Below, piece after piece: positions 1-38,688 of a DNA stretch of 64,000 bases. Source of the DNA: an uncultured Psychroserpens sp. (lineage in GTDB: Bacteria; Bacteroidota; Bacteroidia; Flavobacteriales; Flavobacteriaceae); the NCBI RefSeq assembly GCF_947501425.1, contig NZ_CANMVN010000006.1:1-64000 (forward strand), in the 5' to 3' direction. A program made the translations under genes and the position numbers. Numbering within the stretch: the stretch's first letter is position 1; the number at the start of each line of letters is the position of its first letter. The notes beneath the pieces were generated by a model, which worked only from the letters and a program-made list of their open reading frames with translations, was not told where the DNA came from and did no database searches.

Positions 1-335
1 ACAGATTTATAGCCAAGATCTTCGGCAGCAACTTCCAGGTATGAATCTTGAATCATTGCATCTAAGTCTTTTTTTAATAACAATTTTTTTAGTTGTTCAA
101 TCTCTTTTTGAAGTTCTTTAATACGTGTTATTTCGTCTTTGGTTTTCACTGTTATTCTAGTGTTCATAAGGTCTTTACGGTTGTACTTTCTAATCCATTC
201 ATTAATGGTAGTTGGTGCAATTCCATAAGCCTTACCTAATTGATACTTGTTTAATTTTCCAATTGTAAGTTCGTCTAAAATTTTCAATTTAAAAGGTTCT
301 GAATACCGTCTGATTACTTTGTCATTTTTATACAT
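1..335 (-). CDS. IS3-family transposase orfA (partial)
   Basis: About 111 codons are open from an ATG at 333-335 to the window edge with no stop. The translation starts MYKNDKVIRRYSEPFKLKIL, followed by a helix-turn-helix segment (YQLGKAYGIAPTTINEWIRKY, about residues 32-52). A leucine-zipper-like coiled coil (about residues 70-90, with KELQKEIEQLKKLLLKK) comes next. HTH plus zipper is the layout of IS3-family OrfA, which binds the IS ends and is fused to the catalytic OrfB by programmed frameshifting. OrfB and the frameshift site would lie left of base 1. The truncation is due to the window, not a visible mutation. Confidence 0.85.
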   Translation of the reverse strand, partial: MYKNDKVIRRYSEPFKLKILDELTIGKLNKYQLGKAYGIAPTTINEWIRKYNRKDLMNTRITVKTKDEITRIKELQKEIEQLKKLLLKKDLDAMIQDSYLEVAAEDLGYKS

Positions 336-374
336 AATGTTTGAAATTATGTAGCCTTTATTCAGGACGGGTCA
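1..374 (-). mobile_element. IS3-family insertion sequence, left end, cut by the window edge
   Basis: The element is read on the minus strand from about position 374. On that strand its outer end starts TGACCCGTCCTGAATAAAGG, a TG-starting terminal inverted repeat of the kind seen on Bacteroidota IS3-family elements. The transposase orfA start lies 39 bases inside it. The other end is outside the window, so orfB, the second inverted repeat and any target duplication cannot be seen. The insertion point lies only 14 bases past the core GTT of the attC-like repeat at 381-517, so the element has landed in the first bases of a third cassette. The exact outer boundary is inferred from that terminal sequence. 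Confidence 0.75.
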
Positions 375-380
375 AGCTTG

Positions 381-517
381 TTGCCAACGTGTTTGTGTAT
401 GATTTAGTTGCGGGCAAGTACACGATTCATTTTCCGCAGTAACAATATAGTAAATTGTAAGAAAAGATTCTGCCCTTAGTCAGCAAACCGCAATTAATTA
501 TACACGTTGTTGGCAAC
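381..517 (-). repeat. attC-like recombination site of cassette B
   Basis: An imperfect palindrome of about 137 bp that follows the 543-1688 gene on the minus strand. One end is TTGCCAAC (381-388), the other GTTGGCAAC (509-517), so the ends are complementary and flank the invariant AAC/GTT. Inside these, GTGTTTGTGTATGATTTAGTTGCG (389-412) pairs partly with the arm at 491-508. The pairing leaves a few unpaired bases on one arm only, as in integron attC sites where extrahelical bases choose the strand. The first 38 bases (375-412) are identical to 1719-1756 and the 21 bases 491-511 are identical to 1917-1937. The middle (413-490) is unrelated to the other copy. The attC role is an inference from this layout and the nearby recombinase. 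Confidence 0.7.
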
Positions 518-542
518 TGGCTTTTTAATTATCAATTAGTTC

Positions 543-1688
543 TTAAAAGTAAGTAATGTTCAATATTGTAGATTTATCCAATATTTTTTCATTGAATTGA
601 ACTATATAATTTAGTATTTTAACTGGGTTATTTAAATCGTCAAAGAAATACTCATAATTTAGTTCTCTTATCTTTGGTTCAGAAGTCGAACTTGACTTTT
701 TTGTAGTAATAGTATTAATTGTTCTAACATGTAATTTGTCATCATAATCTATAGTACAGTTTCCGTTTTCCCATACAAATTGCTCTTTTTTTCCGTAATC
801 CTGTACGAAGGTTTCTACATATTTAATAATTCTATTTTTATTATCGTATTCGTAAGTAGTTTTCCAACTTAGTGGATTATAATCCGTTAAGTTAATTTCT
901 TTTAAATACCAGTTTATTGGATTATCGCCTTGCTCATTATTATAATCTCTATGATATTTTTTAAAAACTTTTTCATCAGTTTTTAACTGGTTTACGTCAT
1001 TGTATAAGTATGAAGTTCTGTAATGTTCAATTATATCATAACCAATTATATATTTGTTTTTTTCAATAAGATTATTACTATCGTTATATGTAACTTTTTC
1101 AAAGACTTTTATTTCAAATTCGTCAAAAACTATATTATTTTCGTCTACATTACCATTTTCATCTGTTTTGTGTATTCCATAAGATTGATAATGTTTAATC
1201 TCTATTAATTTATTATAGTGGTTGTAGTTATAAACAATGCTATCTATCGATCCATGAAATCTATCGGTTTCCTTTTCTAAAGTTAACAATCCTTTTTTAA
1301 AAGTATATTCAGTTATATCTTGATTTATAATGGTATCTTTTTTAGTTGTAAATTCATTTTTTATGTTGAATGATTCAATTGTTTTGTCATCATATTCGTT
1401 TGAACTCACGTAGCTAATTATTTGTTTTGAATCGTTTAATTTGTACATGTAGATTTTGGTATCCTTAGCAATGTTACCATAGATAGAACTGTGCTGTTCG
1501 TACTTACGCTCTACAGTTTTTACATTGCCATTTAAATAAATTGGGTTATAAATTTTATCTTCTTCATATATTTTAAAGTATTTATTTTCAGGCGATTCAA
1601 AAGTCGGAGTTTCTATAACTAGATTTTGACTATTAGAATAATTACAAAGTAGTATAATAATTAGAAGATATTTAATTTTCAAAGTCAT
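543..1688 (-). CDS. exported protein with YD-like repeats (cassette B)
   Basis: A 381-residue protein with an N-terminal signal peptide (MTLKIKYLLIIILLCNYSNS, cleavage predicted just before QNLV), so it should be exported. The body contains several YD/RHS-like beta-strand repeats of the form tYeYDnknrIikY, visible around residues 145-170, 200-215, 225-240 and 275-295. No catalytic motif or named family is recognised. It is the only gene between two attC-like repeats and is read away from the recombinase at 2679-3839, as expected for a gene cassette. The ATG lies 44 bases inside the cassette, and I see no exact -7 box between the boundary and the start. It could be a surface or secreted YD-repeat protein; its function is unknown. 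Confidence 0.8.
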   Translation of the reverse strand: MTLKIKYLLIIILLCNYSNSQNLVIETPTFESPENKYFKIYEEDKIYNPIYLNGNVKTVERKYEQHSSIYGNIAKDTKIYMYKLNDSKQIISYVSSNEYDDKTIESFNIKNEFTTKKDTIINQDITEYTFKKGLLTLEKETDRFHGSIDSIVYNYNHYNKLIEIKHYQSYGIHKTDENGNVDENNIVFDEFEIKVFEKVTYNDSNNLIEKNKYIIGYDIIEHYRTSYLYNDVNQLKTDEKVFKKYHRDYNNEQGDNPINWYLKEINLTDYNPLSWKTTYEYDNKNRIIKYVETFVQDYGKKEQFVWENGNCTIDYDDKLHVRTINTITTKKSSSTSEPKIRELNYEYFFDDLNNPVKILNYIVQFNEKILDKSTILNITYF

Positions 1689-1718
1689 AACAAATTTTAA
1701 AATCAGAATTGCTTTTTT

Positions 1719-1944
1719 AGCTTGTTGCCAACGTGTTTGTGTATGATTTAGTTGCGATCTTAGGGTCTTGCTCTAGTTTAGCTTTTGCCGAATCAGCCGA
1801 CTGCAAGGAGGTAGGCAAAAACAGCGTTGGCAGGAGCGAGGCTTGTGCGCAACTAATCAATTAGTTAAAGATAGTAATTTGTAGGAATATTTGGTAAACT
1901 TAAAGCACTTGCGCAGCAATTAATTATACACGTTGTTACCTGTA
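1719..1944 (-). repeat. attC-like recombination site of cassette A
   Basis: A 220-bp imperfect palindrome between the two cassette genes. The plus-strand left end has TTGCCAAC (1725-1732), which is the start of cassette B on the minus strand. The right end is GTTACCTGTA (1935-1944). The right end is the exact reverse complement of TACAGGTAAC at 2636-2645, the first bases of cassette A. Thus the end of cassette A matches its own start and not its neighbour, the rule for R'' and R' in integron cassettes. Outer arms 1719-1756 and 1917-1937 are identical to those of the 381-517 copy. The interior is longer and different, and holds a second palindrome around 1785-1820 (TTTTGCC / GGCAAAAAC). Confidence 0.7.
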
Positions 1945-1945
1945 G

Positions 1946-2632
1946 TTACTCACGATTAGCTTCATTCATTTTCTTTTTCGCAAGTATTGGACTTAAATTC
2001 CGTTTTGTCATTTCCCTTGCAATTAATTCAGCTGTTATTCCAGAAGCATATAAATCTCCAGTTTTTGTATTTTGGTAAAGTTCCATTAATTCTACATTCG
2101 AGGACTTAATAGATTCTGATAATTCCTGAGCAAATTCTTTGTCAATTTTAAAATCACTGTTTAATGATTTTAAGTAATTTTCTTCGTAATAAGTAAAGCC
2201 AAATTTATTATCCAAAAGACTCAATTCAAAAGGCATTTTTGAAATTGAATCTTGAGTATAGCTTGTAACTTCGTTAATGAGCTTGATTTTATTTTCAGAT
2301 AGTTTTTCAATTCCGATTATGAAGAATCGATTGTCTCTTATTGGTTTAGCAGAAAGTGGAATTGAGTCTAATCTTTCCACAGCGAGTAAAGTCAGATTTC
2401 CTTTTTGTTTGGATTTAATGATTTTATAATGTTTTCGAGCCTTTGTTCTGCAATCAAAATTTGCATCACAACGATATTCATAAAGAGTATCATTTTGTTG
2501 TTCAATGGAAAATAGTTTTCCACTATTCACAAAATAATATTTCGATTCCAACACACTTTGAGAACACGAAATATTTAACGTGCAGACTGTAATAATTAAA
2601 ATCAGATATTTAATTTGAAGTAGGTTTTTCAT
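1946..2632 (-). CDS. putative lipoprotein of unknown function (cassette A)
   Basis: A 228-residue protein starting MKNLLQIKYLILIITVCTLN followed by ISC, a lipobox, so it is probably a lipoprotein with the acylated Cys at about residue 23. No recognised domain follows; the C-terminal 60 residues are mostly helical and charged. The ATG is only 13 bases inside the cassette boundary at 2645. Its promoter must therefore lie outside the cassette, in the attI-like stretch next to the recombinase, where an exact TATATTTG box is found at 2660-2667 on the minus strand. This is the first cassette of the array. Function unknown. Confidence 0.8.
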   Translation of the reverse strand: MKNLLQIKYLILIITVCTLNISCSQSVLESKYYFVNSGKLFSIEQQNDTLYEYRCDANFDCRTKARKHYKIIKSKQKGNLTLLAVERLDSIPLSAKPIRDNRFFIIGIEKLSENKIKLINEVTSYTQDSISKMPFELSLLDNKFGFTYYEENYLKSLNSDFKIDKEFAQELSESIKSSNVELMELYQNTKTGDLYASGITAELIAREMTKRNLSPILAKKKMNEANRE

Positions 2633-2635
2633 AAT

Positions 2636-2678
2636 TACAGGTAACTAGTTATATCTTTTCAAATATATACATTAATCA
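2636..2678 (-). promoter_or_regulatory. attI-like junction with a promoter facing the cassettes
   Basis: The 43 bases between the recombinase stop (2679) and the first cassette gene. TACAGGTAAC (2636-2645) marks the start of cassette A on the minus strand (GTTACCTGTA). The remaining 33 bases are AT-rich and contain TATATTTG on the minus strand (2667 to 2660), an exact match to the Bacteroidota -7 box TAnnTTTG. Initiation would be expected about 6-8 bases further on, leaving a leader of about 20 bases before the ATG at 2632. I see no clear -33 TTG. By position this corresponds to attI plus Pc of an integron; that reading is an inference. Confidence 0.55.
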
Positions 2679-3839
2679 TTATATGTTTCGGGATAACAGA
2701 ACATTTGTTTGCTCTTTTTGCGCAGACTTTAATTGCTTGACAATCACGTCTAACGGACTCGATATTTGCATTAAATCCTTACGTGTCACATGTGTGTAAA
2801 TCATAGTCGTCTCTGGACGGGCATGACCTAATAAAGATTGAATATGACGTAAATCAACACCTTGCTCCAATAAATGAGTCGCATAACTGTGACGTAACGT
2901 ATGTGGTGTAACCACCTTGTTAATCCTTGCTAACTGACTGCTGCGTCGCAAAAATTGCCTAACACTTCCAGGACTATATCTCGACCCATTCATACCCTCA
3001 ACAAAATATCGCTTAGGTCGGTAAGTACTAAAGTAATTAGATAAAATCGGCAAAAAGCTCTCAGCTAAACTAACATAACGGTCTTTACGCCCTTTACTAT
3101 CTCGTATCAATAATTGCCGCCTGTCAATATCAAAATCGGATAGATTTAAGTTAATTAATTCACTTATACGTAATCCGCAAGAATAGAGCAGCGCTATTAT
3201 GGCACGATGCTTTAAGTTTCTCGTTGATCGAATCAAATCAATAACCTCTTCTTGCGATAACACCACAGGTAAACGTTTTGATTTACTTGGTCTTACTAGT
3301 GCCAAATCATCAATGTTTGTTGTAGGCTTAAAAACTGTAAATAGTTTTAAGGCACTAATAAATTGACGTTGAGTGCTTACACTATAACGACGCTTTATAA
3401 ATACATTTTCAATATATAATTCTACAGCTCGGTTATCCAAGCTTTCTAATTCGGTATCATGGTAAAACGATAAGAAATCAGCAATTGCAAACACATAAGT
3501 TCTAATAGTGCTCTTACTATAGCGTTTGCCTTGTAAATAACGATAAAAGGCATTCAAAAGTTTCTTTTGATCTTCCCTCAAATATAGATCACGCTTAGGC
3601 TTAGCATCAAGTTGATCAGTGTCTTCCAGATGAGCTATCTTCGATAAAACACCACGAACCAAGTTTAAATGTTCTTTAGAATACGCAACTAACCAAACTC
3701 GCTTTGGAGGATACCACCTGGCTGTAGGAATTTGTCTTAAGCACTCAATGATTTCCGAATTGTACGAAAAGGAAATGGTTATATAAGATGCACCTTCAAT
3801 GGATTCAATAGCTATTGTTATGTGAGTTTTATTTGACAT
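2679..3839 (-). CDS. tyrosine recombinase, integron-integrase-like / XerC-like
   Basis: A 386-residue site-specific tyrosine recombinase. All catalytic residues are present: R224 (CGLRISELI), K249 (DSKGRKDR), H313 and R316 (HTLRHSYATHL), H339 (LLGHA) and Y348 (TTMIYTHV). A SAM-like core-binding domain spans about 88-180. The end of the catalytic domain (TTMIYTHV then SSPLDVI) resembles integron integrases. The extra helix IntI proteins carry between the Lys patch and HxxR (the RKYPRAG-type segment) is absent, so this is not canonical IntI. Residues 1-75 form an additional N-terminal domain with RWYPPKRVWLVAYS, found on many Bacteroidota recombinases and reminiscent of a HARP-type fold. It lies directly upstream of, and co-oriented with, the cassette array. 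Confidence 0.9.
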   Translation of the reverse strand: MSNKTHITIAIESIEGASYITISFSYNSEIIECLRQIPTARWYPPKRVWLVAYSKEHLNLVRGVLSKIAHLEDTDQLDAKPKRDLYLREDQKKLLNAFYRYLQGKRYSKSTIRTYVFAIADFLSFYHDTELESLDNRAVELYIENVFIKRRYSVSTQRQFISALKLFTVFKPTTNIDDLALVRPSKSKRLPVVLSQEEVIDLIRSTRNLKHRAIIALLYSCGLRISELINLNLSDFDIDRRQLLIRDSKGRKDRYVSLAESFLPILSNYFSTYRPKRYFVEGMNGSRYSPGSVRQFLRRSSQLARINKVVTPHTLRHSYATHLLEQGVDLRHIQSLLGHARPETTMIYTHVTRKDLMQISSPLDVIVKQLKSAQKEQTNVLLSRNI

Positions 3840-3858
3840 GTGCTATAACTTATATAAT

Positions 3859-3866
3859 CAAATATA
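3859..3866 (-). promoter_or_regulatory. -7 promoter box for the recombinase gene
   Basis: On the minus strand 3866-3859 reads TATATTTG, an exact TAnnTTTG box, 20 bases before the recombinase ATG at 3839. A matching -33 TTG is not evident, so this is a reasonable but not certain promoter. Confidence 0.45.
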
Positions 3867-3908
3867 GAGAAAATAATCTATAAATGTATGTCTCTATTGG
3901 TTTTGTGG

Positions 3909-4979
3909 CTAAGAGTTGGAATAGTATTCGAAGCTTTTTTTAATCAAATCATTATCAACCAGACAATTGATTTTTGGCTGTCCGATCTGTTTGAGCAATA
4001 CAAAATTGATATTTCCGTGTTCATTCTTTTTATCATACTTCAACAGATCAATAATGGCATCATAATCTCTAGGCACTATAGGCACAGGTGCATAAGTGGC
4101 AGTAATGGCATTGGTGATATAATCCAGATCTGCTTTTGGGAAATCTAATAACTCAGCAGAAATATAGGTTTCCAGAATCATACCAATAGCAATAGCTTCT
4201 CCATGCAAGAGTTCCTCTTTTTCTGGATGACTTAAAAAATACGATTCTATAGCATGACCAAGTGTGTGACCATAATTAAGATGCTTACGTTCAGCTTGTT
4301 CTAAAGGGTCTTTCGTTACAATATCTTTTTTAATCACAACAGATTCATGTATCAAAACATCCAAATCTTTTAATGTGAGCTTCGAAAGATCAGTCAGTTT
4401 ATCAAAATAAGCTCTGTCGCTTATGAGGCCGTGTTTTAACATTTCGGCTAAACCAGAACGTAACTGGTTTTGAGGTAAAGTATCTAAATACGAAGTATCG
4501 ATAATAACCATATCTCCAGAGCTGATAACGCCTACCTGATTTTTTAAATTACCAAGATCTACACCTGTTTTTCCACCTACCGAAGCATCTACCATTGCTA
4601 GTAGTGATGTTGGAATATTGATGTATTTGATGCCGCGTTTGAAGGTGCAGGCTACAAATCCGCCAAGATCGGTCACCACACCACCTCCAAGATTGAGAAG
4701 GAGGCTTTTACGATCTGCTTCCAGTTCTGATAATGCATTCCACACACCAACACAGGTATCTATGGTTTTGTGAGTTTCACCAGCTTCAATTTCAATCACT
4801 TCAATCGCAATATCTGTTTCTAAATACGACATAAATTTTGCTAGACAATGCTCATGCGTATTGGTGTCTACTAAAATAAATACTTTTGAAAAACGATGGG
4901 TTTCAATGTATGTGTTGAGCGCTTCATAGGCCTTAGTATTAAAATGAACCTTATAGGTTTTGGTTTCTATGGAATTCAT
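3909..4979 (-). CDS. aroB: 3-dehydroquinate synthase
   Basis: 356 residues, usual length. It converts DAHP to 3-dehydroquinate, the second step of the shikimate pathway, using NAD and a divalent metal in the cytoplasm. Visible family motifs: the NAD-binding GGGVVTDLGGFVA (about 97-110), the substrate segment SLLAMVDASVGGKTGVDLGNLKN (about 125-147), metal ligands in GLAEMLKHGL, LNYGHTLGHAIE and LHGEAIAIGM. It starts at the ATG at 4979 and is divergent from proline dehydrogenase. No other aromatic amino acid genes are adjacent. Confidence 0.97.
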   Translation of the reverse strand: MNSIETKTYKVHFNTKAYEALNTYIETHRFSKVFILVDTNTHEHCLAKFMSYLETDIAIEVIEIEAGETHKTIDTCVGVWNALSELEADRKSLLLNLGGGVVTDLGGFVACTFKRGIKYINIPTSLLAMVDASVGGKTGVDLGNLKNQVGVISSGDMVIIDTSYLDTLPQNQLRSGLAEMLKHGLISDRAYFDKLTDLSKLTLKDLDVLIHESVVIKKDIVTKDPLEQAERKHLNYGHTLGHAIESYFLSHPEKEELLHGEAIAIGMILETYISAELLDFPKADLDYITNAITATYAPVPIVPRDYDAIIDLLKYDKKNEHGNINFVLLKQIGQPKINCLVDNDLIKKSFEYYSNS

Positions 4980-6301: not shown

Positions 6302-8644
6302 TTAGAATGGTTTGTACCATTTTTTATTTCGATGTGGATTATTTCCGTAGCCATAACCGTAACCTTTCTTTTTAATCGTTCCGTTAAGAAGCGTTACCAT
6401 ATTTGGCAAACGTTTTTCTTCATACATGGTTTGCGCTATGTGTAATTGACGCTTATCAATATTATTTGCACTTACAACATATATAAATATATCGGCATGT
6501 TCACTAATAAGCAAGGTATCGGTTACCAAACCAACAGCTGCTGTATCAACAATAACATAATCGTAATGCTTTTTGACGTTTTCAAAAAGATAGTTCACAC
6601 GATCACTCATTAATAACTCTGCTGGATTAGGCGGAATAGATCCTGAAGGAATCACATCTAAAAATGGATTATCCTTTACCTTTACAGTCACATCTTCAAT
6701 GCTTAAACTTTTATCTGAAATGAAATCTGTAAGCCCTTTATCTGTTTTCATATTCAAATAATCATTAACTCTTGGGACTCTAATATCAGTTTCAATTAGT
6801 AATACTTTCTTTTCTGAAAATGAAAATGAACTGGCCAGATTGGTCGTAGTATGAGATTTTCCCTCTTGTGCTGAAGTAGAGGTTACAAATACTGTTTTGC
6901 AAGGGCTATCTACTTTTTGCAACATGAAATCAATATTGGTTCTGATAATTCTGAAAGCCTCAGCCTTTGGAGAATAATCTACTTTGTTAACGACTTTTAA
7001 TTTTTTCTCCGATTTCGGAATGTCACCAATAAAAGGTGCTTTGATCAATCGCAATACATCTTCTTTGTTATGCACTTTTGTGTCAATAAGATCTTTAGCG
7101 TAGACAAATGATACAGGAACAAAAAGTCCGAGTAATATAGCAGCCAGATAGATGACCTTTTTCTTAGGTGAAACAGGATCTTCATTGGTATAGCCATAAT
7201 CGATGACCTTTGCATTAGCTGTTGACATACCAAGAGTAATGGCTGTTTCCTCACGCTTTTCTAATAAATAGAGGTAGAGTGATTCTTTAATATCTTGCTG
7301 ACGTTTAATATCTCTAAACTGACGCTCTTTTCCTGGTGCAGAATAAATTTGTCCGCGAATTCTGCTTTCTTCTCTATTCAGGTTTCTCAGCGTGATTTCA
7401 TTTGCTCTCTTAATATTATTTAAACTCTGATCAAGGTTGTTCTTTAATGCATTTATCTGATCGTTTAATTTAACAACAGTTGGATTCTTATCACTTGAAT
7501 TTTTTAAAATACGATCCCGTTGCAACACTAATTCATTATGACTTTTGGTAATTTGTGCGACATCACTATCTGCAATACCAATATCGGCAGGTAGCAGATC
7601 GGTTTCTACACTATCATCGTTAAGACGTTCACTCATGAATTCAACCAATTGCAATTGATTACTGGTTTGGTTGATCTTGGCATCGGTTTGACGTTCGCTT
7701 TCTAAAAAGATGTTAGATTGAGCAGATAGCGCAGTAAGCCTGTTGTCTTTTTGTAGTTTTTCGGCAGTAAAATCCACTTGTTCCAATTCGTTGGACACAA
7801 CATTTAAACGATTGGTAATAAACTCTGATGTTGTTTTTACAATTAGCTCCTTGTCATTAATAACATCTGCATTATATTTTTCTATGACCTTGTCTAATAT
7901 TAAACGAGCTTTTTCCTTAATACTCTCCTTTAGAGATAACCTAATCACGTTAGAGTTTTCAGTAGTACTAATCTGTAGCTTGGTTAAATACTCCTCAACA
8001 ACACTATGTAGCGGTCTGATGCTAATTTCAACATAAGAACCAGGTTCAGAACCGTAAGTTCCAATATTAGGTGTGATAACAAATTCGCCAATAGAAGCGC
8101 TTACCTTGTCACCAAAACTATGGGTTGTAGTTTCTCCATCATTAAATTCCAATAGTTTATTGGTGTTGAGTTTAGAGAGTTCAAACTGTTGCTCTGATAT
8201 GACTTTTATAAACAGTGATTTATTAATGTTCTCAACAATGGAATCACTCATAAAGAAATTGACATTCATTGGAGGATTTGAGTAAACTTCCTGATTCTTT
8301 AATTTACCACTAACAAAATACCTGATGTTGAGTTTAAGGTCTTTTACAACTTCAGTAAGAATCGATCGTGAGCGGATGACTGCAATTTCATCTGTGACAT
8401 TAGGCAAGGTAGTTCCTAACATGCCATTTTGGAGTGAGGATATTTCAGATAAACTCCTTGAGTTCTCGTCTTCTTTTAATTTGATAGTAGCATTTGCTTC
8501 ATATAAAAAAGTACTATACCTGATTTTTAAAAACGCAATGGCCAATGCTATAAACAGGCAAACCAGAATGAGCTTCCATTTGGATAGATATAACTCAAAC
8601 AGGTTAACAATAGTATCTTTATTTGTAAGGGAATTTTGCGACAT
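6302..8644 (-). CDS. wzc: polysaccharide co-polymerase and tyrosine autokinase (Wzc)
   Basis: 780 residues. A bacterial tyrosine kinase fused to a chain-length-control domain; it regulates polymer length and drives export through the outer-membrane Wza channel. Wzz domain near the N-terminus with a membrane helix at about 30-50, long periplasmic coiled-coil region (about 250-470), second membrane helix at about 510-530, then the kinase domain: Walker A variant TSAQEGKSHTTTNLA (about 588-602), Walker A' VLLIETDIRVPRV (about 615-627), Walker B VIVDTAAVGLVTD. The C-terminal end is a tyrosine-rich tail with GYGYGYG, the autophosphorylation cluster. It is the last gene of the polysaccharide locus and follows wza with a 20-base gap. 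Confidence 0.95.
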   Translation of the reverse strand: MSQNSLTNKDTIVNLFELYLSKWKLILVCLFIALAIAFLKIRYSTFLYEANATIKLKEDENSRSLSEISSLQNGMLGTTLPNVTDEIAVIRSRSILTEVVKDLKLNIRYFVSGKLKNQEVYSNPPMNVNFFMSDSIVENINKSLFIKVISEQQFELSKLNTNKLLEFNDGETTTHSFGDKVSASIGEFVITPNIGTYGSEPGSYVEISIRPLHSVVEEYLTKLQISTTENSNVIRLSLKESIKEKARLILDKVIEKYNADVINDKELIVKTTSEFITNRLNVVSNELEQVDFTAEKLQKDNRLTALSAQSNIFLESERQTDAKINQTSNQLQLVEFMSERLNDDSVETDLLPADIGIADSDVAQITKSHNELVLQRDRILKNSSDKNPTVVKLNDQINALKNNLDQSLNNIKRANEITLRNLNREESRIRGQIYSAPGKERQFRDIKRQQDIKESLYLYLLEKREETAITLGMSTANAKVIDYGYTNEDPVSPKKKVIYLAAILLGLFVPVSFVYAKDLIDTKVHNKEDVLRLIKAPFIGDIPKSEKKLKVVNKVDYSPKAEAFRIIRTNIDFMLQKVDSPCKTVFVTSTSAQEGKSHTTTNLASSFSFSEKKVLLIETDIRVPRVNDYLNMKTDKGLTDFISDKSLSIEDVTVKVKDNPFLDVIPSGSIPPNPAELLMSDRVNYLFENVKKHYDYVIVDTAAVGLVTDTLLISEHADIFIYVVSANNIDKRQLHIAQTMYEEKRLPNMVTLLNGTIKKKGYGYGYGNNPHRNKKWYKPF

Positions 8645-8664
8645 AATAATGTGTTTATACTATG

Positions 8665-9465
8665 TTAGTTTCGAAAAATGAAAATTGCTGCAATAGTTGC
8701 TAATGTTGATACAGCAGATATGACCAACGGTGTATTAGGATTGTAAGATGATGTTTTAACTCTGGCATTATTTGGTTCTACATAAATAACATCATTCTGT
8801 GATAAATAATACACTGGTGAGTTTACAACATTGATAGAGGTAAGGTCATACTTTGCATACTTTTTCTTTCCATCTATTTCGCGAATTAAGAATATATTAT
8901 CTCGCTTTCCGTAGATAGTTAAATCACCAGCTAAACCTAAAGCCTCTGTTAATGAGATTCGTTCATCTTGAACAGTGTAAGCACCAGGACGATTAACTTC
9001 ACCAAGAACAGTGATGGTGAAATTGACAAGACGAATGTTTACAATAAACTCTTTAACGTATTCACCTATTTTTTCTTTGAGCATTTGAGTGGCCTCAACT
9101 CTGGTAAGACCTCCAATTTTTACAGTTCCCAATACTGGAAACTCAATATTACCATCCTTATCAATCAAATAGGTTTGTCTCAATATGTTGGCTTGGTTTA
9201 CAACACTGGCATTATTAGCATTGTAGCTAACTACAGGTAAATTAAATGCTGCAACCGATTCTGCAACTTCTGCTGAAACATCAATAGTTAGTAAATCGTT
9301 GGGTTTATACTTGATTTCATAAATATTATCCAGCTCACTTAAACTTTGATCTGTAATAGGTTCATCCTGAAAGTAGATGATCTCTTTTCTCGAGCCACAT
9401 GAGGATAAAATGGCTAAAGAGAGTACAAGAAATACTCGAAATATGTGGTTGAAATTTTGACGCAT
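8665..9465 (-). CDS. wza: outer-membrane polysaccharide export lipoprotein (Wza)
   Basis: About 266 residues from the ATG at 9465; an upstream in-frame ATG at 9516 would overlap the preceding gene and add residues before the signal sequence. The chosen start gives a clean lipoprotein signal with lipobox LSSC followed by GSRKEI. A polysaccharide export (SLBB-neighbouring) domain includes YKPNDLLTIDVS (about 55-66) and DKDGNIEFPVLGTVKIGGLT (about 120-139). A SLBB segment follows (VLGEVNRPGAYTVQ), and a C-terminal hydrophobic helix ends the protein. It should form the outer-membrane channel that works with Wzc encoded immediately downstream. Confidence 0.93.
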   Translation of the reverse strand: MRQNFNHIFRVFLVLSLAILSSCGSRKEIIYFQDEPITDQSLSELDNIYEIKYKPNDLLTIDVSAEVAESVAAFNLPVVSYNANNASVVNQANILRQTYLIDKDGNIEFPVLGTVKIGGLTRVEATQMLKEKIGEYVKEFIVNIRLVNFTITVLGEVNRPGAYTVQDERISLTEALGLAGDLTIYGKRDNIFLIREIDGKKKYAKYDLTSINVVNSPVYYLSQNDVIYVEPNNARVKTSSYNPNTPLVISAVSTLATIAAIFIFRN

Positions 9466-9490
9466 AATGTTTTGTTTGATTTGGTTTAGC

Positions 9491-11383
9491 TTATTTTTTT
9501 GAATCCAAAACCTCATATTTTGAGTTGTTGGAAATATATTCGGGAATTATATCTTTTATCATGGATACAATCTCTAGATTTTGAGACTTAGAATTAACAG
9601 CACATAAACTTGAGATTTTATCACTAATGGTTAAAATATCTAAAGGTTTGGTTTTAGCAATCATGATCTTTTCATGATATGTAGGTCTTGTGTTTTCACC
9701 ATCTGCTAATAGCTCCTCATAAATTTTTTCACCTGGGCGTAAACCTGTAATTTTAATATCTATATCTTCTGGATATCTTAATCCAGAAAGAATGATCATA
9801 TTTTTTGCCAAATCATGGATTTTAACAGATTCACCCATATCAAACACAAAGATCTCACCTCCATTACCCATAGTTGCCGCTTCTAATACAAGCTGACATG
9901 CTTCGGAAATGGTCATAAAATATCGTGTAATTTCTTTGTGAGTAACAGTTAGCGGTCCGCCATTTTCAATTTGTTTTTTAAATAATGGAATAACAGAACC
10001 GTTAGACCCTAATACATTTCCAAATCGAGTGGTAATGAATTTTGTCTTTCCTTTTCCTTGTAAACAATTTACATAAAGCTCTGCAATACGTTTTGTTGCT
10101 CCCATTACATTGGTTGGATTTACCGCTTTATCTGTGGAGATCAATACAAATTTATTGACACCATGCTTTACTGAAAGACTTGCGACATGTCTGGTTCCGC
10201 CAATATTAACACTAACGGCTTCATAAGGGTTGTTTTCCATTAATGGTACATGCTTGTATGCTGCAGCATGAAATATGATTTTAGGTTTATGGATTTGAAA
10301 TAGTTTTTCCATGCGTCTAAAGTCTCTTACATCTGCTACAATGGAAATGAAGTTCTTTACACCATTTTGTATAAATTCCTGCTGAAGCTCGTACAATGGC
10401 GATTCAGCACTGTCTATAAGAATTAATTTTTTATAGTTATAATGTGTTGCTTTTCTAGCAATTTCACTACCAATAGAACCAGCAGCACCAGTTATTAAAA
10501 TGATTTGATTTTCATACTCGTCTATCAATGCAGGATTGGTTATAGAAATAGGATCACGTCCTAGCAGGTCTTCGATATTAACCTCTTTAATTTGACCAAC
10601 ACTAAGGTCGCCATCAATCCAATTTTGGACAGGTGGTACAATTTTAACTTTCAGCCCCAATTCAAATAACTGGCCAGAAATCTGTAATAGTCTTGAAGAT
10701 TCAATATTTTGAATAGAAATGATAACTTCCTCAACACCGTACTTTTCTATAAACTTCGGAGTGATTTTATCCAAGCTATATACCGATAAGGTATTTATCT
10801 TTTTACCAATCTTACTATCATTGTCATCAATAAACCCAATAATTTGATGGCTATTCTTCGGGTCATTTGTAATAGCATCATATGTGATCATTCCAGAATT
10901 CCCTGCACCAAAGATCAAAACACGTCTTTGGGTTTTAAAATCCTGCATAAGCTTATTATACATAGATTTTATAAACAACTTGAAACCTACTAGAAAAAGG
11001 ATATTGAGTAGTAAATGAATATAAATAATCGATCCGGAAATATTGAAAATCCCATCAAAATGAAAGCGTCTGCTAAAAAAGGTTGTTACAATAAGAATGG
11101 TAGCTAAAATATTGACGCCAATGATAATATTGATAACATCTTTAAACCCTGTAAATCTAACAACACCTTTATACGAACCAACTAAAAGAAAACTGATTAA
11201 AGCAGCTAAAACCACAAAGGGGATCTGCTTGAACATTGTAATAAAATCAAAGTCTAGAATAAAATTAAAACGTATAACATATGCAGCAATGAAGGTAAAT
11301 GCTACGATACTTAAATCGAAAAGCATTACCAACCATCTGGATGCATATTTATGCGAAATATTTTGAAGTAAACTTTTAATCAT
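9491..11383 (-). CDS. membrane nucleotide-sugar dehydratase, CapD/WbpM/FlaA1 type
   Basis: 630 residues. Four N-terminal membrane helices (within about 1-130), then a first Rossmann-like CoA-binding domain (RVLIFGAGNSGM, about 153). The catalytic SDR domain follows: NAD motif ITGAAGSIGSEIARK (about 298-312), FHAAAYKHVPLMENNPYEAV, and the catalytic region STDKAVNPTNVMGATKR, in which the usual Tyr of YxxxK is replaced by Met, the large-enzyme subtype. The family performs 4,6-dehydration of UDP-GlcNAc, the first step to UDP-QuiNAc4N-type sugars. The aminotransferase gene overlaps its start by 4 bases and would act on the 4-keto product. Confidence 0.92.
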   Translation of the reverse strand: MIKSLLQNISHKYASRWLVMLFDLSIVAFTFIAAYVIRFNFILDFDFITMFKQIPFVVLAALISFLLVGSYKGVVRFTGFKDVINIIIGVNILATILIVTTFFSRRFHFDGIFNISGSIIYIHLLLNILFLVGFKLFIKSMYNKLMQDFKTQRRVLIFGAGNSGMITYDAITNDPKNSHQIIGFIDDNDSKIGKKINTLSVYSLDKITPKFIEKYGVEEVIISIQNIESSRLLQISGQLFELGLKVKIVPPVQNWIDGDLSVGQIKEVNIEDLLGRDPISITNPALIDEYENQIILITGAAGSIGSEIARKATHYNYKKLILIDSAESPLYELQQEFIQNGVKNFISIVADVRDFRRMEKLFQIHKPKIIFHAAAYKHVPLMENNPYEAVSVNIGGTRHVASLSVKHGVNKFVLISTDKAVNPTNVMGATKRIAELYVNCLQGKGKTKFITTRFGNVLGSNGSVIPLFKKQIENGGPLTVTHKEITRYFMTISEACQLVLEAATMGNGGEIFVFDMGESVKIHDLAKNMIILSGLRYPEDIDIKITGLRPGEKIYEELLADGENTRPTYHEKIMIAKTKPLDILTISDKISSLCAVNSKSQNLEIVSMIKDIIPEYISNNSKYEVLDSKK

Positions 11384-30700: not shown

Positions 30701-32274
30701 CTATTGTAGATGCAGGTAGTGATGTTACAATAACTGAAGGAGAATCGACAACATTAACAGCTACTGGAGCAGCATCTTACTTATGGAGTACAGGTGAAAC
30801 TACATCAAGTATTACAGTATCTCCAAATAGTACAGCAGTATATTCTGTAACAGGAACAACCAACGGTTGTGAATCTACAGATGAGATCACTGTAACTGTT
30901 GAAATAGAAAATGTAAATGCTAATGCAGGTAACGACGTTTCAATATGTGAAGGAAGCAGTACAACACTAACAGCTACAGGTGGAACAACCTATTTATGGA
31001 ATACAGGTGAAACCACATCAAGTATTTCTGTATCACCTTCAGTAACAACAATATATACGGTAACAGCATTCAATACATCGCAAACTGCTTCAGATGAGGC
31101 TAGTGTTACTGTATCAGTCGATGAGTTGCCAGCAACAAATGCTGGAGCTGATATCACAATCACTGAAGGAGAATCAACGACTTTATCAGTTACAGGAGCA
31201 GAATCTTACTTGTGGAGTACTGGAGAAACAACATCTACTATTTCGGTTACACCAGAGGTAACGACAACATATACTGTTACAGGTTTTTCAAACCAATGTG
31301 AATTTACTGATGAAGTGACAGTTATTGTAGAGCCATTTGAATTTACAGCTAGTGCAGGTTCTGACCAAACTATTTGTCAAGGTTACGAAACAACATTAAC
31401 AGCTTCTGAAGGCGATAGCTACTTATGGAGTACAGGTGAAACCACTCAGAGTATTACAGTAAATCCAGCCAATACGCAAACTTATTCTGTTACAGTATTC
31501 CAAGGGCAATATCAAGCTGACGCAGATGTTATGGTATCTGTAAATCCAAATCCAAATGTGGTGATATCAAACGGAGGAGAGGTTATGATACTAGAGGGTG
31601 AGTTTGTAACCTTATCTGCATCAGGTGCAAATACTTACCTTTGGAATAATGGTGCAACACAGCCGAATATTGCTGTAAGCCCATCATCAACAACTACTTA
31701 TGAAGTTACAGGTTATGTAAATAATTGTGAAGATACTAAAGCTGTTATTGTAAATGTATTTGAAACAGTTGAAGCATATGCAGGAGAAGACCTAACGATT
31801 TGTTCTGAAGACACTGTGACCTTAACAGCTGAAGGTGGAGATGAGTATTTATGGAACACTGGAGAAACAACACAAAGTATTGAGGTAAGTCCTGATGAAG
31901 ATACAGAGTATTCTGTTTTGGTGTATAATGCTTTAGACAGTGATGAAGCTACTGTTACGGTTTATGTTGACCAATGTAATGTGATTCAAACACCTCCGGA
32001 AAGTGAAGATTTCGATTTTGTAGTATTCCAGGAGCCAACAAGTGATCTTTTAAAAGTTAAAATAAATGGTTTACAAAATGTAACAGCTAAAGGCATTTCA
32101 ATTTATGATATGTCTGGTAAGATTCTTTACACTGAATTATTTTCGCCTTCAGAATCGCAAAATCAATCTCAAATGGTGAGAGAAATAAATACGAGTCCGT
32201 ATGCCAGAGGAATCTATATGGTAAGACTTATTTACGATGATACTAGTGTCATCAAAAAAATACCAATACGATAA
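27736..32274 (+). CDS. secreted pectate-lyase-like protein with 13 Ig-like repeats and a T9SS sorting domain
   Basis: 1512 residues. Signal peptide about 1-34 (hydrophobic AYSLILLFLLIFLTP, then FFAQEQ). Residues about 35-430 are a right-handed beta-helix of the pectate lyase type: AFPTASGAGAYATGGRGKPV, VTNLNNSGSGSFRQALED, FEVSGTINL, NYIIDHCSFSWGTDEAAD. Residues about 437-485 are an Asp/Asn-rich calcium-binding linker (DTDNDGMPDQWE, DTNNNGYSDIEDF). Thirteen 70-residue Ig-like repeats follow (about 489-1413), and a type A T9SS C-terminal domain ends it (SIYDMSGKILY ... RGIYMVRLIY). It is thus predicted to be exported by T9SS and attached or released at the surface. The substrate is not determinable; pectin or another uronic acid polymer is possible. 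Confidence 0.92.
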   Translation: MTSPRPYYHIHGIQAYSLILLFLLIFLTPSTFFAQEQLAFPTASGAGAYATGGRGKPVYKVTNLNNSGSGSFRQALEDTRDTDGGIITFEVSGTINLTSQIYFTNQDNITIAGQTAPEGGITIANYRLRFQNVNNLIMRYIRIRPGYSPYPSTEIDAFEIFNCSNYIIDHCSFSWGTDEAADSGNGSNYTWQRNLFAESNKTGMIMGGEPQLSENLSFINNMFYNCSHRFPNFQSNGRVDVINNVVWNWRTRMSVPQGGFQANHVNNYYVHFRSDPPADLDIRGMLWYPNPTNFPTIYTSGNYVSDVLTDPNADNWPMWRFRFNPSGTIYSGAGNESPLTEDFRTLTPFTQLGNPFEILSAVDAFDDIKYDVGVNARLLANGDVADNTDFLDDIYLTNVQNDVLDQYTQETVLNTPHRTEFLNSISTTPINTHPSSYDTDNDGMPDQWELNNFGNLDNNGQSDTNNNGYSDIEDFLNGVDFDTQGTTGNEVSVSANFETICAGDEVTLTATGAETYAWDYDNQTSSSFTVALTETTTFTVTGTHSDDSTTEASITITVNEIPTVNAGEDVAICQGSSVTLTASGGTSYEWSTGDTSSSITVNPNETTTYTVVATQNGCESIPDAVVVTVNDSPVVDAGPNETIFLGESVTLTATGADSYLWSTGETTQSITVNPIQDTSYSVTGTTNNCEDTDTVTVFLQDDSVDANAGIDTEICNGETVTLTATGGSTYLWSTGETTPSIEVSPTETTTYTVTAFSESGNNSEEDSVIVTVNDIPVADAGEDVDICFGNVTTLTASGGTSYVWSTGATTPSITVSPNDTTTYTVEVFENNCSSTDEVIVTVNQIPDVSAGTNVTIELGESATLTATGADTYLWETGATSASIQVTPTVTTTYTVTGFSNGCEASADVTVTVQSETVIANAGEDITICEGSTTTLTATGGATYLWNTGETTASIDVSPTTTTTYTVTAFSESGNQSDDDTVTVTVNALPIVDAGSDVTITEGESTTLTATGAASYLWSTGETTSSITVSPNSTAVYSVTGTTNGCESTDEITVTVEIENVNANAGNDVSICEGSSTTLTATGGTTYLWNTGETTSSISVSPSVTTIYTVTAFNTSQTASDEASVTVSVDELPATNAGADITITEGESTTLSVTGAESYLWSTGETTSTISVTPEVTTTYTVTGFSNQCEFTDEVTVIVEPFEFTASAGSDQTICQGYETTLTASEGDSYLWSTGETTQSITVNPANTQTYSVTVFQGQYQADADVMVSVNPNPNVVISNGGEVMILEGEFVTLSASGANTYLWNNGATQPNIAVSPSSTTTYEVTGYVNNCEDTKAVIVNVFETVEAYAGEDLTICSEDTVTLTAEGGDEYLWNTGETTQSIEVSPDEDTEYSVLVYNALDSDEATVTVYVDQCNVIQTPPESEDFDFVVFQEPTSDLLKVKINGLQNVTAKGISIYDMSGKILYTELFSPSESQNQSQMVREINTSPYARGIYMVRLIYDDTSVIKKIPIR
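29200..31975 (+). repeat. 13 tandem about 210-bp units coding for Ig-like repeats
   Basis: Each unit encodes about 70 residues with the pattern AGxDxxICxG-xTLTATGGxxYLWSTGETTxSIxVSPxxTTTYTVTxF. Two sub-types alternate over most of the array: one with xTIxEGE and GAxSY plus a late NGCE/NNCE, the other with ICEG and GGxxY and no late Cys. The even units 6, 8, 10, 12 and the odd units 7, 9, 11, 13 give a two-domain period of about 426 bp. This suggests growth by duplication of pairs. Confidence 0.85.
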
Positions 32275-32300
32275 AAAATTACTTGATGTTAGTTGGTAGA

Positions 32301-32340
32301 AACCATTGTTAGCGTTTTACGTTAGCAATGGTTTTTATTT
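32301..32340. terminator. intrinsic terminator after the pectate-lyase-like gene
   Basis: AACCATTGTTAGCG, loop TTTTA, then CGTTAGCAATGGTT followed by TTTATTTT; 12 of 14 pairs. The T-run overlaps the last bases of the convergent gene that ends at 32335. It serves the plus-strand gene. Confidence 0.75.
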
Positions 32341-32715
32341 TATAATAACCGACTGTACAGTTGCAGAAGAATCTGCCTCACAATTCTTCACACGAAGTTC
32401 TATAGCTTTATCGTTCAATTCGTTCTCTATTAGGTAGATCTTACAATCTTTAGGTTTTGTATCACTTTCAGAAAAGTTAACATCTCCACTTTTGATAAGC
32501 TTAGAAATGGCTAGGGTATCCAGATCGTAATTTTGCATTGCAGTTTGAGCTGCTTCAGAATAGAAACGCTTTTTTTTAGTACTGATGCTTTTAATAGTTC
32601 TGGCATTTGGTCCATAGGAACACGAGGCTTTTTTTCCTCCTAAAAAGAATGCTAATATAATAAGACCTATGGCAAAACCTCCCAAATAGTAACCTATTCG
32701 ATGAATTAATTTCAT
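32335..32715 (-). CDS. small membrane-anchored protein, DUF4258-like
   Basis: 126 residues. One N-terminal membrane helix (about 10-26, YLGGFAIGLIILAFFLGG), then an exposed domain of about 90 residues with YSEAAQTAMQNYDLDTLAISKLIKSGDVNF, which resembles DUF4258 proteins. Function unknown. It follows the alanine dehydrogenase gene by 18 bases and is probably co-transcribed with it. Confidence 0.75.
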   Translation of the reverse strand: MKLIHRIGYYLGGFAIGLIILAFFLGGKKASCSYGPNARTIKSISTKKKRFYSEAAQTAMQNYDLDTLAISKLIKSGDVNFSESDTKPKDCKIYLIENELNDKAIELRVKNCEADSSATVQSVIIK

Positions 32716-32733
32716 ATGATTGATGTTTTTTTC

Positions 32734-33933
32734 TTAGAAGATTAACAAGTTGACATCACTACAGTCGAGATCAAACCAATCTGCAACCGATTTATTGGTT
32801 AAAATTCCGTGGTAAAAATACAACCCATTTTTTAATCCGCGATCAAAACGTATGGCATTTTCTATACCACCATCTTCAGCAATCTTTAAGAGGTAAGGTG
32901 TAAAGATATTACTAATTGATACAGAGGCAGATCGAGAATATCTGGCAGGAATATTTGGTACACAATAATGTATGACACCATTATGAACGAAGGTTGGTTT
33001 ATCATGGTTTGTGACTTCGCTAGTTTCAAAGCATCCTCCCATATCAATACTAACATCAATCACCACAGCACCAGTTTTCATGGTGTTGACCATAGCTTCA
33101 GTTACAACAATTGGTGACCTGTTTTTTCCTCGAATAGCACCAATAGCAACGTCACAGCGTTTCAAAGCTTTTACTAGATTTTTTGGCTGCATCGTTGAGG
33201 TATAAATGGTACGACCCAAATTAGATTGTACACAACGTAATTTAGTGATGGAATTATCGAATATTTTAACATTAGCACCGAGGCCTATTGCTGAACGAGC
33301 TGCAAACTCTCCAACTGTACCAGCGCCAAGAATAAGTACTTCGGTAGGTGGAACTCCGCTGATATTTCCAAACATGAGTCCGTTGCCACCATTAACATTA
33401 GATAGTAACTCTGAAGCGATTAGGATAGAGGCTGTACCTGCAATTTCACTAAGTGATCGAACAGCAGGATAGGCACCATCATCATCTTTAATAAACTCAA
33501 AGGCTAAGGCAGTAATTCGTTTTGATGCTAGAGCTTCGAAGTATTTTTTATGTTGCGTTTTAAGTTGTAACGCAGAAATCAGCAAGGTTTGCGGATTAAT
33601 CATTTCCACTTCATCCAGTGAAGGGGGTTCTACTTTAAGTATGATAGGGCAGGAGAATACTTTTTTAGTATCGTTAGTAACTTCAGCGCCAGCTTCGCTA
33701 TACGCTTTATCATTAAAATTAGCACCTTTCCCAGCACCAGATTCGATCATTACGCGATGACCGTTAGACACTAATGCAGATACAGCATCAGGTGTAAGAC
33801 AAACACGTTTTTCCTGAAAGTGAGTTTCTTTCGGAATTCCGATAAAAAGATCGCCTTTCTTTTTATAAACTTCAAGCGTTTCTTCTTGTGGTAACAATTG
33901 TGCTTTGGTAAAAGGAGATAATGATTTGCTCAT
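32734..33933 (-). CDS. ald: alanine dehydrogenase
   Basis: 399 residues. NAD-dependent conversion of L-alanine to pyruvate and ammonia in the cytoplasm. The AlaDH/PNT domains are visible: N-terminal IGIPKETHFQEKRVCLTPDAV (about 32-52), VMIESGAGKGANFNDKAY, the NAD motif VLILGAGTVGEFAARSAIGLGA (about 200-221), and IDVSIDMGGCFETS near residue 295. Bacteroidota enzymes of this length with a 20-residue N-terminal extension are typical. The gene is divergent from the membrane protein gene at 34028. Confidence 0.92.
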   Translation of the reverse strand: MSKSLSPFTKAQLLPQEETLEVYKKKGDLFIGIPKETHFQEKRVCLTPDAVSALVSNGHRVMIESGAGKGANFNDKAYSEAGAEVTNDTKKVFSCPIILKVEPPSLDEVEMINPQTLLISALQLKTQHKKYFEALASKRITALAFEFIKDDDGAYPAVRSLSEIAGTASILIASELLSNVNGGNGLMFGNISGVPPTEVLILGAGTVGEFAARSAIGLGANVKIFDNSITKLRCVQSNLGRTIYTSTMQPKNLVKALKRCDVAIGAIRGKNRSPIVVTEAMVNTMKTGAVVIDVSIDMGGCFETSEVTNHDKPTFVHNGVIHYCVPNIPARYSRSASVSISNIFTPYLLKIAEDGGIENAIRFDRGLKNGLYFYHGILTNKSVADWFDLDCSDVNLLIF

Positions 33934-34027
33934 TGACTTATGAATTGGAAATTCAAATTACAAATAAAAATTCATTTTTTACAAAATAAGTTTCTTATAT
34001 TCGTTGTAGACAATTTTCTATGAACAA

Positions 34028-34615
34028 ATGGTTTTCAGAAATAAAATTGAATTAGTTGATATTATTGTAATAGTGCTAATAGCACTTTCACCTTATATTT
34101 TTTATGTACAATATTTGTTGCCAGATTCAGAGTTGAAAAGATTTATTATTGAATATGGGAATGATTTAGATACAGTTTTATGGTTTTGTGCCATTAAGAT
34201 TCATTTAATAGTTCTTTTACTAATTTGGTATTTCACATGTAAACATTGGTGGAGGATTTCAATTTTGATTCCTTTAATTCTGGAAATATTTAAGCTTATT
34301 GGACTTTTTAATACTAATGTGGATACTTTTGATGAAGTTGATTTTATTATAAGTTTTCCCGTTACTATTCCAATTATCTTTTTGGTGTTTTTTTTATTAA
34401 ACAAACTGCGATTATACTCTAAATCGAGAATTCTAATTGACGAGCTTAATGAAGAGATAGAATCCGTTTTTAGTCAAGTATCGTCTAATAACCAATCGAT
34501 AATTGGGCGAATAGAAAAAGATTTTCTGATTTTAAAAGAGAATAGAAAGCAATATAGTAAAGAAGATTATTTGAATAAATTACTAAAACTACATAATAGG
34601 TTTAATGATGGATAG
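34028..34615 (+). CDS. membrane protein of a three-member paralogous family (copy 1)
   Basis: 195 residues, no recognised family. Four hydrophobic segments: about 10-30, 55-75, 80-100 and 115-140, then a charged C-terminal helix of about 50 residues. The shared core is LLIWYFTCKHWWRISILIPLILEI, matched by KNWWRLVVLIPLSFEI in the next gene and NRNWWYHALLVPIVMYI in the 35715-36275 gene. It overlaps the next gene by 11 bases, so the two are co-translated. A near-consensus -7 box TATATTCG is at 33996-34003. Confidence 0.8.
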   Translation: MVFRNKIELVDIIVIVLIALSPYIFYVQYLLPDSELKRFIIEYGNDLDTVLWFCAIKIHLIVLLLIWYFTCKHWWRISILIPLILEIFKLIGLFNTNVDTFDEVDFIISFPVTIPIIFLVFFLLNKLRLYSKSRILIDELNEEIESVFSQVSSNNQSIIGRIEKDFLILKENRKQYSKEDYLNKLLKLHNRFNDG

Positions 34616-35201
34616 GGAGCTTAGTAAAGATGTAATAGTAATTTTTTTAGTTATAGCTTCTCCTTTTGGGTTCTTCTTGTATTTGTTATCACCTAATGAT
34701 GCCCAAATCTGGTCTACAAAATATTTTGTAATTGATGCTGGTTATTTTGAAGATATTCAGAATTTTTTATGGATTTTTAATTATAAGTTATTAGTCATTT
34801 TATTGATTTCTATTTGGTTTCTAACCTGTAAGAATTGGTGGAGGTTGGTTGTATTAATCCCATTATCTTTTGAAATTTACAAATTCCTTAGTTTCATCAA
34901 TGATAGAAATAATTATTTTTCAGATTTAGATTTCAATATTTCATTATTTATCATAATACCATATTGCCTTAGTTTATTTACTCTATCTAAACTATTTGGA
35001 TATTATTCAAAAAAGAACAACTCTAAATCTGAATTACACAATGAGATTAACAATCAAATGAATGAACTATCACGATTTAGAAAAAAAGAATTTAAATATA
35101 TAGATAAGGAATTTAAAGCTCTAAAGACACATAAAGATTATTTAGAAAGCAAAGAATACTTATCAAGATTAATTAGGCTAAGAGATAAACTAAGTAGCTA
35201 A
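34605..35201 (+). CDS. membrane protein of a three-member paralogous family (copy 2)
   Basis: 198 residues with the same layout as copy 1: about four membrane segments, the WFLTCKNWWRLVVLIPLSFEI core, and a charged, coiled-coil-prone tail (about 140-198) with ELHNEINNQMNELSRFRKKE. Its stop overlaps the stop of the opposing HTH gene by 4 bases. Function unknown; tail-to-tail packing with a small regulator and a third paralogue beyond it suggests one functional module. Confidence 0.8.
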   Translation: MMDRELSKDVIVIFLVIASPFGFFLYLLSPNDAQIWSTKYFVIDAGYFEDIQNFLWIFNYKLLVILLISIWFLTCKNWWRLVVLIPLSFEIYKFLSFINDRNNYFSDLDFNISLFIIIPYCLSLFTLSKLFGYYSKKNNSKSELHNEINNQMNELSRFRKKEFKYIDKEFKALKTHKDYLESKEYLSRLIRLRDKLSS

Positions 35202-35554
35202 TCTTTTGTATTGTTGATTTCTGATAAAATTTCATCCAAAAGTGCTTTCTTTTCATCAGACCACTGTGATTTAAGTTTATCATCGATGAAGGTCTCAATC
35301 TCTTGCTTGCTTCTTACTTTTGGTCGAGACGGTTGGTCTACAAACATATTGCCTTTACCTGTAATTAGCCATACTAAATTAATTTGAGGGTATTCTTTGA
35401 CAATACGCTCTATAACGTCACTGCCTACAGAAGCATTGTTTTTTTGCATTCGCAATATGTAACCATTTGCGGTGCCTATAGAGAGGTCAAATTGCCTGGC
35501 ACTCATATTAAGTGCAGAAATAACCTGCATAATTCTATTAATTGTTTTACTCAT
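35198..35554 (-). CDS. small XRE-like HTH regulator
   Basis: 118 residues. An N-terminal helix-turn-helix of phage-repressor type, about residues 5-60 (IMQVISALNMSARQFDLSIGTANGYILRM), followed by PQINLVWLITGKGNMF, a signature often seen at the end of the HTH in Bacteroidota XRE regulators. The C-terminal half is a charged helical region that may dimerise. A perfect 10-bp palindrome TAGTTAACTA (35554-35563) covers its start codon and could be an operator. It lies between copy 2 and copy 3 of the membrane protein family. Confidence 0.82.
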   Translation of the reverse strand: MSKTINRIMQVISALNMSARQFDLSIGTANGYILRMQKNNASVGSDVIERIVKEYPQINLVWLITGKGNMFVDQPSRPKVRSKQEIETFIDDKLKSQWSDEKKALLDEILSEINNTKD

Positions 35555-35598
35555 AGTTAACTAGGGAGAATTAGTATGTTATGATAATTAAATATATA

Positions 35599-38687: not shown

Positions 38688-38688
38688 G

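Follow-up and report, generated by a model that had tools for sequence, protein, structure and literature searches.

Sedentary chromosomal integrons of the Vibrio type consist of a tyrosine recombinase (IntI), an attachment site (attI) and long arrays of mostly single-gene cassettes that run in one direction; their hairpin recombination sites (attC) are cut at G|TT, and the ends of a cassette are complementary. The same parts recur in the locus described here, a likeness drawn partly from general knowledge of the Vibrio systems. The locus lies at the start of the window, i.e., the whole stretch of 64,000 nucleotides that was analysed, which begins contig C6 (NZ_CANMVN010000006.1) in the draft genome (3.70 Mb, 40 contigs) of an uncultured Psychroserpens sp. 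of the Flavobacteriaceae. Integrons were described in Treponema, in another phylum (PMC3607928). Bacteroidota were named among the phyla with integrons (PMC8618304), and Salinibacter ruber M1, of the same phylum, was described with an integron and a canonical IntI (PMC9024848); only In0 had been found in Bacteroidetes before, as stated in a cited paper. Sites of the flavobacterial kind are carried by Polaribacter phage P12002L in a cluster of attC sites lacking integron-integrases (CALIN), for which the available text of PMC9892861 describes no integrase. According to that text, IntI1 recombined one of two tested attC sites with attI1, and the top strand yielded no clones; the recombined site may differ from the sites matched by our motif. 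In this phage (L121), several arm motifs were observed at about 31117-40932 beside a methyltransferase gene and other lytic-phage genes. Surveys of integrons were described as picking the integrases via the IntI-specific domain (PMC2426708, PMC8352920, PMC9668308), and hence an integrase without this insert would be missed by them. The earlier note on this DNA was not aware of a description of this layout in Flavobacteriaceae. None was found among the papers listed in a literature search by title and start of abstract, outside which lay preprints and most subscription journals, for flavobacterial integrons with an insert-less integrase; as the Salinibacter report indicates, integrons as such were already known in the phylum.

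Judged from sequence, the locus is very probably part of a flavobacterial sedentary chromosomal integron, namely the end that holds the integrase, and the neighbouring recombinase, which lacks the IntI-specific insert, apparently runs it. An integron architecture had been proposed in the earlier note and was borne out by the complementarity of cassette ends, the attI site, the one-strand arrays, the differing cassettes behind similar attI sites and the borders at G|TT. The features are given below in the order in which they follow one another along the minus strand.

2679-3839, minus strand: integron-type tyrosine recombinase, 386 aa, with a weakly HARP-like region at the N-terminus (about residues 1-90), a SAM-like domain and a catalytic domain, and without the IntI-specific insert
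2645-2695, minus strand: predicted attI, 51 bp, which overlaps the recombinase gene at its 3' end and terminates at the G of G|TT
1732-2644, minus strand: gene cassette A, 913 bp, with gene A at 1946-2632 (228 aa)
1732-1944, minus strand: attC-like site of cassette A, with R" 1935-1944, L" 1926-1931, L' 1739-1744 and the G|TT cut at 1732/1731
388-1731, minus strand: gene cassette B, 1344 bp, with gene B at 543-1688 (381 aa)
388-521, minus strand: attC-like site of cassette B, a palindrome with the R" arm at 509-518 plus a few bases further and the G|TT cut at 388/387
374-387, minus strand: initial bases of a third cassette, with a predicted border to an insertion sequence
3-335, minus strand: transposase fragment at the contig end (Pfam HTH_Tnp_1)

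The recombinase is followed on the same strand by two units with one open reading frame (ORF) each, as had been noted from the letters alone, and the shared outer arm was confirmed at full length (375-412 and 1719-1756, 38 of 38 bases identical). The shared inner arm was present with 22 bases (490-511 and 1916-1937), one more than first noted. The units themselves were real, and their borders moved by one base once the G|TT cut was applied, which gave 1732-2644 and 388-1731. Judging by their length, arm repeats of this kind within 4 kb would be far beyond chance. The third unit appears to be broken by the transposase fragment, presumably of IS3 type, with the insertion about 14 bases into the cassette (window 3-387). 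No Rfam match was obtained in window 1-4000 at E up to 1.

Because an integron cassette is a circle before it is inserted, its start is expected to be complementary to the last arm of the same cassette, not to that of its neighbour. For cassette A, the start is GTTACCTGTAATTA and its own last arm, read backwards, is GTTACCTGTAGTTA; for cassette B, they are GTTGGCAACAAGCT and GTTGGCAACTGGCT, respectively. The own-end match of 53 cassettes, drawn from 84 sources of which 29 had strict sites, was 7.36 of 10, compared with 4.94 in within-source permutations (maximum 5.70 in 1000). For 34 adjacent cassette pairs, the match was 7.68 of 10 to the own cassette and 3.82 to the next. In the long arrays of four relatives (G014, G068, G113 and G101), the own-end match of 7 was 5.84, 5.07, 5.46 and 3.58 versus 3.00, 2.11, 2.87 and 2.20, respectively. 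Ends that match their own unit and not the next characterise circular cassettes that are cut at G|TT. The sets used for end matching, arrays and strand folds were not chosen by end match. Among 347 cassettes, the median length was 863 bp and 332 started with GTTR. The longest ORF of 116 cassettes ran in the array direction in 80 and in the opposite direction in 3, and 33 had no ORF of 60 aa with an ATG start.

To locate the junction between attI and the first cassette, the DNA behind the recombinase was searched for complementarity to the end of that cassette, allowing 2 mismatches at most. A junction was found in 48 of 110 loci plus the window; the remaining 62 gave none or ran into a contig end. 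The attI motif ATATAACnAG|TT or a close variant occurred at 41 of the 48 junctions, and the 7 junctions without it may be false. The distance of the motif behind the recombinase stop codon was 23-42 bp in 36 loci and 130-169 bp in 5 (L064, L069, L070, L077 and L128). As some junction loci represent one genome twice, three such rows were dropped from the promoter count, leaving 38 plus the window. TAnnTTTG, which we take to be the consensus of a promoter element, was present in 11 of these 39 attI sites and in 2.7% of shuffles, which is suggestive only of a cassette promoter within attI.

Similar attI sites were followed by different cassettes. In the pairs L054/L055, L050/L055, L068/L139 and L037/L123, whose recombinases are 80-84% identical, the homology behind the recombinase lasted for 36-39 bases and ended within a few bases of G|TT, after which different cassettes followed. 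Further matches in such pairs were mostly 120-160 nt, about the size of one site. Other pairs of relatives shared 97-168 nt behind the recombinase in some cases (a longer leader before attI), and several gave no match. These comparisons are among the 40 listed of 98 pairs, and 13 of the 40 were one genome met twice. According to the earlier note, arrays identical in all strains would have argued for ordinary dispersed repeats; close relatives carried different first cassettes. Within single sources there were 229 pairs of alike cassettes, some identical yet apart in one array, and the duplicated or shared cassettes started at G|TT. In G113 (L160-L162), near-identical short cassettes of about 450 bp recurred through the array.

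Long arrays on one strand were found in relatives. The sites on the recombinase strand numbered 46, 46, 63 and 59 in G014, G068, G113 and G101, with 3, 0, 0 and 0 on the other strand, and the arrays spanned 90, 70, 70 and 80 kb, respectively (one contig each in the first three genomes, 10 contigs in G101). Across 80 named loci of close relatives, 126 sites lay downstream of the recombinase, 2 upstream and 3 on the opposite strand. Where at least 3 kb of downstream sequence was available (n = 35), 26 loci had a site and 20 had two or more. Among 20 distant relatives, a downstream site was present in 14 and two or more in 7, and none lay upstream or on the opposite strand. Hence, arrays of at least two attC-type sites in one orientation occur in this family. 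A conserved genomic place for the recombinase was considered and rejected, since the neighbours aroB and ProDH were found in 1 of 80 loci.

In the genome of the window itself, a search with the left arm gave 28 places with up to 3 mismatches, compared with 3 in total for a reversed control pattern. The 15 matches with at most 2 mismatches all sat in arrays, either at the starts of C6 and C3 or on C14 and C15, which are small contigs. Among the 13 matches with 3 mismatches, 2 were in the C3 array and 11 elsewhere. Contigs C14, C15 and C3 added 15 complete arm pairs as well as 2 lone R" arms to those of the window, and ORFs lay in between. The refuting signs named in the earlier note, among them arms that recur throughout the genome, turned out mostly in favour of an integron. 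Palindromic repeats of the REP or MITE-like kind that flank genes by chance would produce neither ends that match within units but not between them, nor a single orientation kept for tens of kb, nor the border at attI. This explanation, to which we assign next to no probability, is taken as refuted by the end match, the one-strand arrays, the downstream bias and the attI border. The point in its favour comes from the wider family and is weighed below with the other opposing observations.

A match to the recombinase at E 1e-60 was found in 101 of 199 family genomes (49 with a close and 52 with only a distant relative, a division defined within this analysis), and the site motif in 144 of 199. 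Such numbers suggest a large uncounted reservoir of gene capture. No match better than 1e-90 in the sample of the phylum came from outside Flavobacteriaceae. The median number of motifs per genome was 8 with a close recombinase (n = 49), 7 with a distant one (n = 52) and 1 with neither at 1e-60 (n = 98); the differences from the last group had p values of 1.6e-7 and 9.7e-8, respectively, uncorrected for relatedness.

Several observations weigh against the integron interpretation. The motif number tracked the recombinase, but among the 98 family genomes without a 1e-60 match, 55 had at least one R' motif and 26 had at least 5; arms without a homologous recombinase, also named beforehand as a sign of dispersed repeats, were in this respect encountered. 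A recheck of 14 such genomes, of which 13 had ten or more motifs and one had nine, gave a weaker match (1e-60 to 1e-43) in 8, only matches of Xer strength in 5 and none in 1; G122, one of the five, also had a contig-end fragment. There thus seem to be arrays that lack a detectable close enzyme, comparable to the CALINs of known integrons. Among the 35 loci of close relatives that had 3 kb or more of downstream sequence, the pattern used detected no site in 9, and the same held for 6 of the 20 distant-relative loci. The strict start GTTRRRY fitted just 35 of 347 cassettes. Furthermore, only one cassette body was common to different sources (347 cassettes, 39 sources); it was shared by two genera (G068 and G157, 91.8% identical over 656 nt) and had a different attC in each.

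The recombinase carries R224, K249, H313, R316, H339 and Y348, which we take to be the catalytic residues of the family and which were invariant in 43 of 43 relatives. Its best structure matches by sequence were of the XerA type (5hxy and 4a8e), and it scored 217.6 bits against the NCBIfam model XerA/integron integrase (NF040815, cut-off 220). Unlike XerA-type recombinases, it has a cassette array attached to it and extends at the N-terminus by about 90 residues beyond the match. In contrast to the Vibrio-type enzymes, it reached only 209.2 bits with integrase_gron (TIGR02249, cut-off 265), a model that at a lax E-value matched in all 14 control genomes and is uninformative there. In an alignment with VchIntIA (2a3v), two stretches matched and the 49 structure residues between them did not. 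The number of residues between two catalytic patches was 57 in the window and 57-58 in every one of the 48 close rows (47 loci plus the window) and of the 22 distant rows, whereas it was 99 in all 35 rows of canonical IntI (31 different genes). Hence, the 42-residue IntI-specific insert near patch III was absent from all 48 close and 22 distant rows and present in all 35 canonical rows, which come from the same phylum. In a tree of 53 rows, the close relatives and IntI formed separate clades (support 100 each) and the distant relatives were not one group; the tree had just two Xer rows, both long-branched. By title, the relatives of the recombinase were mostly Flavobacteriaceae (best 80 of 537). 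Two additional recombinases in the same genome were 38% and 29% identical to it. A 44% identical recombinase recurred on Acinetobacter plasmids (H11-H25) over residues 131-366, and one record names it TnpF. A virus-borne enzyme was also looked for and rejected: among 61 viral loci, the best full match was 40% identical and one contig-end fragment was 61% identical over 49 residues. The site motif was present on six viral contigs.

The N-terminal region was found in all 33 aligned full-length members and was variable, with only F24 and W42 invariant. HARP domains bind branched DNA. PF07443 (HARP) matched 7 of the 33 regions at E up to 1 (best 3e-4), and the region of the window scored 18 bits, under the cut-off of 25; DUF5710 matched 10 of the 33 (best 0.023). 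The profile of the region gave E 0.13 with the HARP structure 4o66, which ranked below the unrelated 7uek at 0.0021. According to these matches, the region may be described as weakly HARP-like.

The additional domain was described as necessary for integron recombination (PMC9668308), and the phage P12002L, one of whose attC sites was recombined by IntI1 (PMC9892861), has sites of the flavobacterial kind, so that IntI may recognise them. The array could accordingly have been built by a canonical IntI from elsewhere, with the neighbouring recombinase as an unrelated Xer-like protein. We consider this very improbable. Canonical IntI scored over the cut-off in 0 of 199 family genomes, as in the 14 control genomes, while with this query 105 of 395 phylum genomes were positive. 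Moreover, the attI motif accompanies the recombinase gene in different genera, and the motif number tracks this recombinase. The enzyme beside the array would then be the active one. The system is integron-like in its apparent behaviour, yet by a definition based on the IntI domain it would not be a member. In PMC8138268, the insert was described as essential for integron function and as not fully conserved in an integron-like subgroup.

The folds of the sites were compared with shuffles and between strands. A long imperfect palindrome had been reported behind each unit. Both strands of site B gave stabler folds than shuffles did (z -3.47 and -2.87). Neither strand of site A as it lies in the array did so (z 0.50 and -0.89), because one half of its outer arm is part of the next unit. 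When site A was joined to the start of its own cassette, it became stabler on the bottom strand (-28.4 versus -24.0 kcal/mol) and less stable on the top strand (-21.6 versus -24.1 kcal/mol). The bottom strand was stabler than the top in 189 of 197 circular-form sites. Compared with the in-array form, the circular form of the top strand was stabler by more than 2 kcal/mol in 112 of the 197 sites and less stable in 4. This poorer pairing of in-array sites would favour insertion over excision. The non-pairing positions on the top strand were A.C in 623 cases and G.T in 99 (204 sites), and the stability of the bottom strand arises because most of these positions, A.C on top, are wobbles on the bottom. 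A quick search with the classical attC pattern gave no locus with at least 3 sites in 30 canonical-IntI loci and 5 longer stretches, and the strand bias is therefore reported without a control.

The sites have the attC order of R box, unpaired spacer, L box and variable end with the cut at G|TT, of which AAC, GTT and the spacer lengths (6 and 3 nt) are fixed by the site finder itself. The L box and the adjacent stem covaried in 137 sites; as this set was restricted to sites with 5 or more of 7 end matches, its R-box figures are inflated. Asymmetric bulges occurred in 148 of 221 sites, and the commonest was the 3-nt spacer difference, counted 114 times. Single-base bulges were counted 49 and 27 times, and clear extrahelical bases were not general. 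Known attC sites recombine as bottom strands, with the strand chosen mainly via extrahelical bases, according to PMC2727003. Compared with Vibrio-type sites, those of the flavobacterial kind rarely start with GTTRRRY and are marked by an asymmetric spacer and G.T wobbles more than by clear extrahelical bases. The folded bottom strand would be the substrate, and the N-terminal region, the asymmetric spacer and the G.T wobbles may stand in for the insert and the extrahelical bases.

These features would also be compatible with an integron lineage separate from every IntI-based one, in which an insert-less Xer-like recombinase recognises the folded bottom strand of the sites via its HARP-like N-terminal region and the G.T wobbles and the 6/3-nt spacer set the strand. 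We propose this tentatively and regard it as somewhat less probable than its opposite. If it were true, the insert would be a later addition to integrons, or the capture of single-strand cassettes would have arisen twice. Integron platforms of the insert-less kind may have been overlooked, and with this system one could test whether integron recombination depends at all on the insert that is regarded as necessary for it.

A different question concerns the strain and not the system. The integron may be an old one whose enzyme is inactive in this genome, with the array as a relic; the array is broken by the transposase fragment at the window edge, and its sites are spread over four contigs. This is rather unlikely, because the recombinase frame is open and keeps the residues invariant among its relatives, and because gene A had no match in the other 198 of the 199 family genomes. 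Its protein also had no Pfam match above the cut-off. Gene B had a match in 3 of the 199 genomes, its own included.

Among the families listed for 80 cassette proteins (25 of 53 and 25 of 37), single members matched HerA, PifA, QatA and a type II restriction enzyme, i.e., restriction and other defence families, and 2 of the 80 matched transposase-type rve domains. On the other side of the recombinase, a Wzz/AAA chain-length-type protein and a Poly_export protein were encoded at window 6302-9516, where a surface polysaccharide cluster perhaps starts near the integron.

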